From Lachnospiraceae bacterium (lineage in GTDB: Bacteria; Bacillota; Clostridia; Lachnospirales; Lachnospiraceae): 41,706 bases of DNA. Below are positions 17,998 through 28,178 of the stretch, in pieces. Made by a program: the position numbers and the translations under genes. The stretch is taken from contig JAILLI010000127.1 in assembly GCA_024693225.1 (NCBI GenBank), forward strand, positions 1 through 41,706, in the 5' to 3' direction. Every line of letters starts with the position of its first letter. The stretch's first letter is position 1. Below the pieces are notes generated by a model. The model was not told where the DNA came from and ran no database searches. It saw only the letters and a list, made by a program, of their open reading frames with translations.

Positions 17998-19782
17998 ATG
18001 GTACTGAAAAAACTAGCCGGATCCATAAGGCAGTATCTTCCCAGCACGATAGCGACACCCCTTCTGGTGTTGGGTGAAGTCGTTCTTGAGTGTACGATAC
18101 CTTTTTATATAGCAGAACTGGTCAACCGCATAAAAGCCGGGGCTGATGTAAAAGAGATAGCGGGCTTTGGCGGGATCCTGACCGTAATGGCCATAGGAAG
18201 CCTCATATTCGGTATGCTGGCGGGCATGACCTGCGCAACGGCAGCCTGCGGCTTCGGGCAGAATCTGCGACTTGATATGTATGATGCCGTCAACGGTTTT
18301 TCATTCGATAATATCGACAGGTTCTCAACGAGCTCACTGGTTACCAGGATGACAACCGATATCACCAACGTTCAGAATGCTTTTATGATGCTGACCAGGA
18401 TAGCCGTGCGGGCACCCTTTATGATGGTGTTTGCCTTTGTAATGGCTTTCCGCCTGGCGGGAAGGATGGCATGGATATTTGCCGCCGTTGTCCCCATACT
18501 GGCGGCGACCCTTATCATGGTGGCAAGCAGGGCTATGCCCCTCTTCAGGCGCATATTCAGGAAATACGACCGCATGAACGAGTCCATAGAGGAGAACATC
18601 ATGGGCATGCGGGTCGTCAAATCCTTTGTGCGGGAAGACTATGAGGAAAAGAAGTTTGACGTCACTTCCGAAGAAGTACGAAAGGACTTTACAAGGGCGG
18701 AAAAGATCCTGGCATGGAACGCACCTGTCATGCAGTTCTGTCTCTATGTGGTAATGGTCTTCGTGCTGACCTTCGGTTCCTATGTGGTCATATCAACGAG
18801 CGGCATGGAATTCGATGTGGGCCAGATCTCTGCATCCCTGACCTACAGCTTTATGATCCTCTCATCCCTCATGATGATGTCCATGATATTTGTCATGATA
18901 ACCCTTGCTTCGGAAAGCGCGGCAAGGATAGCCGAAGTCCTTGACGAGAAGTCAAATATAGTAAGCCCCGATCCGGAAAGCGCGGTTGAGACTGTAGCAG
19001 ACGGTTCGATAGAGTTTAGGGGCGTATCCTTTGCCTATGCCCAGAACCCCGATAATGACGTTCTGACAGATATAGACCTCAGGATAGAGACCGGTATGAC
19101 CGTTGGTATCATAGGATCTACCGGCAGCGGAAAATCATCCCTGGTTCAGCTCATACCAAGGCTTTATGATGCCACGCGAGGGGAAGTATATGTGGGGAAT
19201 GTAAATGTTAAGGATTACGACCTGTCGGTACTTCGTAAAAATGTTGCCATGGTCCTGCAGAAAAATGTCCTCTTTGAAGGGACCATTGCGGACAACCTCC
19301 GGTGGGGAAACCCTGATGCCACCCTTGAAGAGATAAAGGAGGCCTGCCGCCTGTCCTGTGCCGAGGAGTTCATATCCTCAAAGGAAGAAGGATATGATTA
19401 TATGATCGACCACGGCGGCGTCAATATATCGGGAGGACAGAAGCAGAGGCTGTGTATAGCAAGGGCCCTTCTCACAAGGCCGAGGATCATCATATTCGAT
19501 GACTCGACCAGCGCCGTCGATACCAGGACGGACGCCATGATAAGGAAGGGGATGCGCGAATACATACCCGAAACGACCAAGATCATAATAGCCCAGAGGA
19601 CCGCATCTGTGGAAGATGCGGACATGATCGTCGTCATAGACGGAGGGCGTATAGTCAACGTTGGAAACCATGAAGAGCTGTTAAATAACAGTGCTATTTA
19701 TCGTGAGATATATACATCCCAGAATTCCGGCAGGGACAAGGATGCCGGGCAGGAGAAGGGAGGTGATGACAGTGGCAGGTAG
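17998..19782 (+). CDS. ABC exporter half-transporter, degenerate-site subunit
   Basis: A type IV ABC exporter subunit (594 residues) with six TM helices (~15-305) fused to an ATPase domain (~335-580). Walker A is GSTGSGKSS with K379, the signature is ISGGQKQR, and Walker B is IIIFDDSTSAVD. The catalytic glutamate position holds D502, the pattern of the degenerate site in heterodimeric exporters such as TM287/288 and LmrCD. It starts at ATG 17998 after TAGGAGAAAAG. It overlaps the next exporter gene by 17 bases (11 if that gene begins at its GTG). It should pair with that protein to export drugs, lipids or peptides. It has no C39 peptidase domain, so it is not an obvious exporter for the double-glycine peptide at 14147. 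Confidence 0.92.
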   Translation: MVLKKLAGSIRQYLPSTIATPLLVLGEVVLECTIPFYIAELVNRIKAGADVKEIAGFGGILTVMAIGSLIFGMLAGMTCATAACGFGQNLRLDMYDAVNGFSFDNIDRFSTSSLVTRMTTDITNVQNAFMMLTRIAVRAPFMMVFAFVMAFRLAGRMAWIFAAVVPILAATLIMVASRAMPLFRRIFRKYDRMNESIEENIMGMRVVKSFVREDYEEKKFDVTSEEVRKDFTRAEKILAWNAPVMQFCLYVVMVFVLTFGSYVVISTSGMEFDVGQISASLTYSFMILSSLMMMSMIFVMITLASESAARIAEVLDEKSNIVSPDPESAVETVADGSIEFRGVSFAYAQNPDNDVLTDIDLRIETGMTVGIIGSTGSGKSSLVQLIPRLYDATRGEVYVGNVNVKDYDLSVLRKNVAMVLQKNVLFEGTIADNLRWGNPDATLEEIKEACRLSCAEEFISSKEEGYDYMIDHGGVNISGGQKQRLCIARALLTRPRIIIFDDSTSAVDTRTDAMIRKGMREYIPETTKIIIAQRTASVEDADMIVVIDGGRIVNVGNHEELLNNSAIYREIYTSQNSGRDKDAGQEKGGDDSGR

Positions 19783-26911: not shown

Positions 26912-26978
26912 GATGTGAAAGCCCGTATTTGCAGGGTGGGCATATACTGCAAAGTGAATAATAGATACAGGTAACCGG

Positions 26979-27011
26979 CAGGGGCGTCATTTGATGCCCC
27001 TGTCTTTTTTT
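26979..27011 (+). terminator. Intrinsic terminator of the exporter-channel-kinase operon
   Basis: CAGGGGCGTCA pairs with TGATGCCCCTG (11 bp, one G:U) around a 2-nt apex, followed by a T run interrupted by one C (TCTTTTTTT). It lies 68 bp after the HD-GYP stop. Confidence 0.92.
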
Positions 27012-27118: not shown

Positions 27119-27147
27119 TTGACATAACTTATTTCATAAGCTAAAAT
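27119..27147 (+). promoter_or_regulatory. Promoter of the tetR gene
   Basis: Consensus TTGACA (27119-27124), 17 bp, TAAAAT (27142-27147). The spacer holds the inverted repeat CTTAT-TTC-ATAAG, and a direct repeat of GTGAAATTT lies just upstream. The predicted start near 27154 is exactly where the 13-bp tandem array begins. Confidence 0.75.
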
Positions 27148-27156
27148 AACCATGTT

Positions 27157-27254
27157 ATGTAACAAAGATACGTAACATAGATGCGTAACGACGATATGTA
27201 ACAATAATATGTAACAGCGATGTATAACAATGATACGTAACAATGTTATGTAAT
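27157..27254 (+). repeat. 13-bp tandem repeat array in the tetR leader
   Basis: The word TAAC (or TAAT in the last unit) recurs with its T at 27160, 27173, 27186, 27199, 27212, 27225, 27238 and 27251, an exact 13-bp period over eight occurrences. Units read roughly TAACAAtGATAcG, with variation in positions 5-7 and 10-13. Four units contain ATGTAA, an AUG followed at once by a stop. The array lies wholly between the promoter and the likely tetR start (27286). It could be a multi-site operator for the TetR protein or an RNA-level control element. Confidence 0.85.
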
Positions 27255-27285
27255 GTGGCGTCTGCCATGCGGGAAGGGGCTTCGG

Positions 27286-27834
27286 ATGCCTCCAAAGGAG
27301 AAGGTTTCTAAGGTCAGGATAGAGGATACGGCCTTTGAGATGACAAGAGAATACGGGTTTTCCGAAGTTACGGCACGAAAGCTCGCAGAGAGGCTGGGCT
27401 GCTCGACACAGCCAATATTCCGTGCATACGAGAATATGGATGAGCTTCGTGAGGATCTCTTTTACATGAGCACCGACTATTTCATACAGACGATGCTTTC
27501 CAAAAAAGGAAGATCACCGGCATATATGTCACTGGCCCTTTCCTATATCGAATTTGCCAGGCAGGAGAAGAACCTGTTCGAACTCATCGCTTCGGTGGAT
27601 GATTTCGGGACACAGACCATAACGGAATTTCTCAAGACCGATGAAGGGGATCGGCTGCTTGCGAAAATTGCCGGAGACGGTATCCTGCCGGACAAGAAGA
27701 AGGATCTTTTCCTCATGTTCTGGATGTTTGTTCACGGAATGGCAGCGCTCATAGCAGGGAACAGGGTCCAGTTTACGGACAGGGAAGTAAGGGGTTACAT
27801 CACAAAGGCATACGAAGGATTTTTGTCAGTATAG
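27286..27834 (+). CDS. TetR/AcrR-family transcriptional regulator
   Basis: A one-component repressor, 182 residues. The start is ATG 27286 (MPPKEKVSKVRIEDTAF) after GGGAAGGGG; an in-frame ATG at 27253 lies inside the tandem array and lacks a ribosome site. The N-terminal helix-turn-helix is FSEVTARKLAERLGCSTQPIFRAY, followed by YENMDELREDLFYMSTDYF, typical of TetR. The C-terminal ligand domain (~60-180) is helical with an FWMFVHGMAALIAGN segment resembling TetR C-terminal WHG domains. Its own leader holds the repeat array, so autoregulation is likely. The downstream small membrane protein follows after 20 bases and is the probable co-regulated gene. Confidence 0.88.
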   Translation: MPPKEKVSKVRIEDTAFEMTREYGFSEVTARKLAERLGCSTQPIFRAYENMDELREDLFYMSTDYFIQTMLSKKGRSPAYMSLALSYIEFARQEKNLFELIASVDDFGTQTITEFLKTDEGDRLLAKIAGDGILPDKKKDLFLMFWMFVHGMAALIAGNRVQFTDREVRGYITKAYEGFLSV

Positions 27835-27854: not shown

Positions 27855-28178
27855 ATGACGGGGAACAGAAAGAGGAATATGGGGTATCCCGGCAGATTCA
27901 GGAGAAGAGTGCGTAAGACCTTTATCAATATCGTTTTTGCACCGGCAAGGATACCGAGGATCACGGTGGAAATGGTGGATATGCTCATGAAGCTTGCCGA
28001 GATAGCGGCAATGTCATTTGTAGTCATACTGATAGCCCATATAGTGTGGCCGGAAGCAGTTGCCACGGGTCTTCTGATCATGATCGGAGCTATTTTTGCA
28101 CTGCTCGCCCTGCTGATAAAGCTGTCAGATTATCAGGAGAAGATCGAACAGTACAGGTACTACGGCTTCAGGTTATAA
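27855..28178 (+). CDS. Small two-TM membrane protein
   Basis: A 107-residue protein with a basic N-terminus (MTGNRKRNMGYPGRFRRRVRK), two hydrophobic helices (~50-68 and ~71-90) separated by a short loop, and a charged C-terminal tail. It starts at ATG 27855 after CGGGGGAACACG. It follows tetR by 20 bases and precedes a terminator, so the two form a small operon. It has no recognised family. It could be a small efflux partner, a membrane-stress protein or a regulator of transport; the sequence alone does not decide. Confidence 0.6.
   Translation: MTGNRKRNMGYPGRFRRRVRKTFINIVFAPARIPRITVEMVDMLMKLAEIAAMSFVVILIAHIVWPEAVATGLLIMIGAIFALLALLIKLSDYQEKIEQYRYYGFRL

Follow-up and report, generated by a model that had tools for sequence, protein, structure and literature searches.

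A conserved 13-bp tandem array at a tetR promoter of Lachnospiraceae is probably a multi-dimer operator of the TetR-family protein encoded downstream

In the assembled genome of a Lachnospiraceae bacterium (GenBank assembly GCA_024693225.1), the promoter of a gene for a TetR-family regulator runs into a tandem array of nine TAAC/TAAT words, and this array is probably an autoregulatory operator that would be occupied by several dimers of the downstream protein. A multi-site operator was one of two readings proposed in a first-pass annotation of this DNA, and comparative sequence analysis now backs it: the array is anchored to the promoter, it opens with a strong dyad, similar dyads stand at most promoters of the tetR paralogs and, outside the genus, the array pattern is found beside TetR genes in six of seven genomes. 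Its position, its conservation and its association with TetR genes are read directly from the genomes compared. The window, i.e. the whole stretch of DNA that was analysed, is the 41,706-nt contig JAILLI010000127.1 (G000:C38), which comes from a genome in 224 contigs that is 85.1% complete and 6.8% contaminated. The genus comparison set consists of 37 genomes (labelled G000 onward; loci are labelled L), the window's clade consists of 13 genomes that are 70–99% complete, and the named relatives are Lachnospiraceae MAGs, several of them from rumen samples.

The nine words follow each other at an exact 13-bp period, with the first at 27147 and the last at 27251 (Table 1). The longest equal-period run (periods 6–40) thus has nine members, against a maximum of three in 100 first-order Markov windows and of four in 5000 Markov-generated 200-bp stretches of local composition, and the tandem array is real, far beyond chance. 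Tandem Repeats Finder (TRF) called 27147–27253 with a period of 13 and 8.2 copies, as well as a period of 39. A protein-coding repeat was rejected, since the period is not divisible by 3. The earlier description, eight words from 27160 in an array that starts with the transcript, had the period right and missed one word: the array begins upstream of the predicted transcript start because its first unit overlaps the final base of the -10 hexamer. All four ATGTAA words (27157, 27196, 27209 and 27248) had been placed correctly, and they arise because the unit itself reads ..AYR|TAAC. The operator dyad itself is ambiguous, as the array can be read as GTTA-N2-TAAC or as TAAC-N3-GTTA.

Table 1. Features of the tetR promoter region in the window
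Feature	Position	Strand	Basis
Terminator-like site downstream of the HD/GGDEF gene that lies upstream of the promoter	26977..27004	+	Sequence and Pfam
Promoter, sigma-70-type, TTGACA-N17-TAAAAT	27119..27147	+	11/12 match
Array of nine words TAAC/TAAT, units TAAC NNN GWTA YR, beginning within the -10	27147..27254	+	Sequence, TRF, Markov control
First and strongest dyad, CATGTTATGTAACAAA, spanning the predicted +1	27151..27166	+	Self-complementary at 10/16
Six internal units, asymmetric, in one orientation	27160..27237	+	Information content over 69 internal units, 14 loci
Last unit, GTTA restored (TAACAATGTTATG TAAT)	27238..27254	+	Last-unit GTTA in 7/14 loci per set
Probable ribosome-binding site, GGGAAGGGG	27271..27279	+	Sequence, inferred
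tetR, TetR-family regulator, conserved start MPPKEKVSK	27286..27834	+	TetR_N, ortholog starts, structure model
107-aa basic protein, likely second gene of the tetR operon	27855..28178	+	Small membrane protein by eye

The tetR product matches TetR_N with 25.3 bits (cut-off, 24) and stays below the cut-off for TetR_C_33 (26.0 bits; cut-off, 26.8). With its predicted structure (pLDDT 87.9) as the query, the top Foldseek matches were TetR-family structures, the best being 1zk8_B (E 6.6e-4, TMq 0.72). The ATG at 27253, named in the first-pass annotation, is probably not the start codon of tetR: the orthologs begin with an MPPKEKVSK-like sequence, which corresponds to position 27286 of the window, and GGGAAGGGG lies upstream of that position. 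The 107-aa protein had no Pfam match, and a basic protein of 98–109 aa, its likeness judged by eye, is encoded 3' of tetR in 10 of the 12 loci read.

Orthologs of this TetR (45–86% identity) were found in 35 of the 37 genus genomes, two of them as contig-edge fragments, and none was seen in G017 (98% complete) or G026 (82% complete). Across related genomes, which the first-pass annotation proposed to compare, at least three units stand at the promoters of 29 of the 35 orthologs by our own tally from promoter readings. In the other six (G002, G005, G007, G016, G019 and G024), TetR is present without the array, the case that this annotation had named as a refutation, although a single dyad, imperfect in G016, stays at the same promoter spot. 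A dyad that overlaps the gene's own promoter is therefore kept across the orthologs. The arrays have 6–8 units in the window's clade and 3–8 in the sister set (14 loci each; L016, L027–L030, L047 and L048 are omitted from these sets, and L051, apparently outside the 37 genomes, is included). In 34 parsed loci, the start codon lies 83 to 265 bp downstream of the first TAAC (83–188 bp where there are at least three units), yet the array remains on the -10, as established with a parser that sought the array beside a -10 and that left L027 unanchored, misanchored L030 (eight units visible) and found L016 degenerate. A whole-genome search with a promoter-plus-operator pattern that has an N17 spacer matched tetR without mismatch in 21 of the 37 genomes; the promoters of several others have an 18-bp spacer and so were missed by this pattern. 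Outside the genus, G203 carries a nine-word array, read by eye, before a TetR of 49% identity. In G032, a second tetR-type promoter with an array lies at a contig end (L138, G032:C77:41695-41765), the other copy being on C234.

Tandem units in the same orientation and in variable copy number could also be left by replication slippage. A neutral repeat of this origin is scarcely credible, however, as GATA and TAAC stayed while the spacer bases diverged and the position of the array was kept in orthologs of about 50–80% identity. Over 69 internal units (14 loci, window's clade), the information content is 1.89–2.00 bits for TAAC, which is high partly by construction because an array was read on only as long as TAAC had no more than one mismatch, 1.24–1.81 bits for GATA and 0.49–0.98 bits for the three spacer bases. 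In 137 of 140 units, bases 12 and 13, just before TAAC, are a pyrimidine followed by a purine; CA, TG, TA and CG all occur there, as would be expected for deformability at a dyad centre.

The units of an array are not equivalent. GTTA is invariant in the first unit (14 of 14 loci in either set), and the self-complementarity of the first dyad averages 11.0 of 16 positions (33 loci) vs 5.3–8.8 in the later dyads. The internal units, which all point the same way, carry mostly GATA or GATG, and GTTA reappears in the last unit at half of the loci (7 of 14 per set). In the window's clade, a strong dyad GTTA-YR-TAAC over the -10/+1 region is thus followed by 5–7 weaker units in the same orientation at 13 bp, which looks like a strong first site with weaker ones after it.

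The second reading in the first-pass annotation was an RNA element, in which AUG-UAA start-stop words, or a hairpin in the leader, would stall ribosomes or control the mRNA. The array would lie within the 5' leader, and in the window's clade the first unit has ATG at all 14 loci; what is conserved, however, is TAAC and GWTA-YR and not AUG-UAA. ATG precedes TAA at 25 of 135 junctions (23/83 in the window's clade and 2/52 in the sister set), and a start-stop codon element was rejected because its start and stop codons are not conserved. As ATG in the first unit is fixed only in the window's clade and ATA dominates there in the sister set, ATG-TAA would most simply be a by-product of the unit. 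The leaders do fold better than their dinucleotide shuffles, as palindromic repeats would, with z -1.35 for the window and a mean of -1.94 over 17 leaders. The array can fold on itself, but a specific hairpin was rejected too: folding was no better than in control arrays in which the letters of each column were redistributed among the units of one locus (mean z 0.07, 14 loci). Rows of the unit also occur away from the tetR promoter, including in two convergent gaps, and an RNA element is very improbable.

The tetR paralogs (28–39% identity) keep the helix CSTQPIF or CSTQPV, and a TAAC/GTTA-type dyad was read by eye at 13 of 15 paralog promoters; there is no such dyad at L112 and L113, and a sixteenth promoter, L110, is without upstream DNA and was left out. 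Among the paralogs of the ARKES type, (T)AAC-N4-GTTA is present at 10 of 12 promoters, with an AAAC half in four of these, and the other type has RTTATATAAC at all three promoters. More distant homologs have a TAAC/GTTA-type dyad at 6 of 17 promoters and none at the remaining 11.

These paralogs are also candidates for binding the array. The main binder could be another protein, most likely an ARKES-type paralog with the same recognition helix, and the array would then integrate at least two TetR proteins in place of simple autoregulation. The ARKES type shares TARKLA..CSTQPIFR with the window's TetR, it has the dyad at most of its own promoters and, in G017, it alone of three TetR_N proteins has that helix. 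G017 and G026 both have arrays without a TetR ortholog, so either another protein, perhaps the ARKES-type paralog, must be the binder there or the arrays are unbound. We nevertheless consider a paralog unlikely as the main binder, because the dyad of the ARKES type has a 4-bp spacer and forms no 13-bp array, and because the location of the array tracks the window-type TetR gene, in another genus (G203) too.

A search of 397 genomes of the family with a three-unit pattern (at most one mismatch) found matches in nine, seven of them outside the genus; the match count alone is weak, since a reversed control pattern also matched three (G201, G373 and G409). It is the company of TetR genes, with neighbours read at the pattern matches only, that appears to speak for the association. 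In six of the seven out-of-genus genomes, the site lies 14–52 bp upstream of a TetR_N gene (in G203, TetR_N scores under the Pfam cut-off), and four of these six TetR proteins have a different recognition helix. The seventh genome, G314, has two sites, one of them before a CobA/BtuR-like gene. There, a free-standing row of similar units spans approximately 31350–31470 of contig C47 (L129, another genus).

In 18 of the 37 genus genomes, gaps between other genes, away from the tetR promoter, also hold rows of the array unit at 13 bp. With the same pattern, every match in the 13 genomes of the window's clade lies in the tetR promoter, and no free-standing array was found in that clade. We read 23 free-standing loci of sister species (L082–L101 and L134–L136 among them), which loosely counted have between about 4 and 21 units. 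When adjacent strong 10-mers within these loci are compared, 183 of 194 distances are multiples of 13, a period that was partly selected for because the loci were found with a 13-bp pattern. The neighbouring genes (eight proteins searched) include those for CobW-like, MaoC-like, zinc-ribbon, F420-ligase-like, DJ-1, CYTH and MFS proteins. According to the ORF tables, read by eye, two of the 23 loci (L096 and L101) lie in convergent gaps, and the rest are flanked by genes that run in one direction. Two free-standing loci match the N17 promoter-plus-operator pattern, each only at three mismatches, though promoters with other spacers escape this pattern.

Some free-standing arrays sit inside apparent operons, and their presence differs between relatives. 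Upstream of the MaoC-like gene (start readable at 12 of 30 loci), there is an array in three genomes (G008, G026 and G032) and none in nine (G003, G012, G017, G019, G020, G021, G030, G034 and G036); in addition to these twelve, G035 has a short one. Arrays thus come and go. In G005, G009, G024 and G034, tetR and a free-standing array share a contig, at a distance of roughly 10–24 kb. Genomes with a long tetR array may tend to lack free-standing arrays, but this inverse relation is only a lead, because phylogeny is confounded with the presence of free-standing arrays in a clade and there are exceptions: both kinds are present in G009, G028, G030 and G034, the tetR array only in G012, G013 and G014, and neither in G002, G007 and G019.

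It is conceivable, though rather improbable, that the TetR-fold protein builds a helical nucleoprotein on 13-bp arrays that would act, beyond any operator role, as sites of the chromosome: titration sinks, or sites like those of a centromere or nucleoid. The array at the tetR promoter would then be one such site, the bulk of them having been put by sister lineages in intergenic gaps, including those inside apparent operons. On the preferred reading as a multi-dimer operator, a TetR dimer would take the strong dyad first, shutting out RNA polymerase, and more dimers would then occupy the weaker units, possibly in a cooperative manner. Given a 13-bp step and 10.5 bp per turn, each dimer would be turned by approximately 86 degrees from the previous one, and the protein would wind round the DNA rather than line one face of it. 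Through the number of occupied units, the operon that tetR shares with the small-protein gene would come under steep, titratable repression. The free-standing arrays of sister species could bind the same TetR, or a close paralog that shares its recognition helix, and serve as additional sinks or roadblocks. Several features appear to argue against an operator: G017 and G026 have arrays but no ortholog of this TetR, the dyad can be read in two ways, the internal units are asymmetric and unidirectional, which a symmetric homodimer would not require, no such dyad was seen at 2 of 15 paralog and 11 of 17 distant-homolog promoters, and four paralogs have an AAAC half.

As a rule, a TetR regulator acts at one or two dyads, and few kinds of bacterial switch are commoner. 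TetR itself has two separate tet operators, whose half-sites, TATC-N3-GATA, resemble TAAC-N3-GWTA of the array, but tetO is not an array. The nucleoid-occlusion protein SlmA likewise combines a TetR fold with sites dispersed over the chromosome; these are single palindromes, in contrast to the 13-bp arrays, and we know of no tandem arrays for SlmA. We found no natural TetR operator array in the literature searched by title and abstract opening (one search gave the best 10 of 145 papers, and subscription papers lay largely outside), and the design appears unusual for TetR proteins as far as this search reaches. At QacR-type operators, which include that of FadR of Sulfolobus acidocaldarius, two TetR-family dimers are described on overlapping inverted repeats on opposite sides of the helix (PMC6449355). 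The regulator encoded here is also of the TetR family, but the arrays here reach eight units, one every 13 bp, and the presence of at least three units at 29 of the 35 orthologs does not fit a layout of two overlapping dyads on opposite faces.

Iteron-type centromeres (parC, tubC and parS of pSM19035) are similar in layout: they are contiguous direct repeats at the promoter of their binding protein's gene, and the present array stands at the promoter of the gene for its candidate binder. As outlined in PMC5016525, the omega protein (ParB) of pSM19035 acts at parS rows of short direct repeats, several of which overlap promoters, its affinity as a repressor depends on the repeat number, and it wraps DNA as a protein helix; an iteron-type centromere is described as requiring at least four contiguous repeats (PMC9499535). 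The iteron systems, however, use ribbon-helix-helix or winged-helix proteins with a partner NTPase in plasmid partition, whereas the protein here has a TetR fold and is chromosomal, and the tetR operon has no partner NTPase, its second gene coding for the 107-aa protein. A conserved, naturally occurring row with as many as eight units, accompanied in sister chromosomes by free-standing rows of up to about 20 (loose count), would be a ready-made system in which to measure how the steepness and noise of autoregulation depend on the numbers of operators and of natural decoys, and to learn whether a TetR fold, like the iteron-binding proteins, is able to wind around DNA.

Elsewhere in the window's genome, the exact promoter-plus-operator pattern was matched only at G000:C200:3797. 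This second promoter (L122, 3797–3850) has a tetR-like -35/-10/operator layout with two units, and the genes downstream look mobile by eye; the two that were tested had no Pfam match. A two-unit pattern with up to three mismatches gave 32 rows vs 18 for its reversed control. Five of the places outside the array were read, and only the one on C200 was kept, those at window position 19680 and on C66, C167 and C180 being dropped because they overlap coding frames. A phage origin was rejected, as the promoter-plus-operator pattern was unmatched in IMG/VR and only one contig there matched the array pattern exactly. On a viral contig from IMG/VR (L213:6930-6966), GTTACATAAC-type repeats at 13 bp lie between genes.
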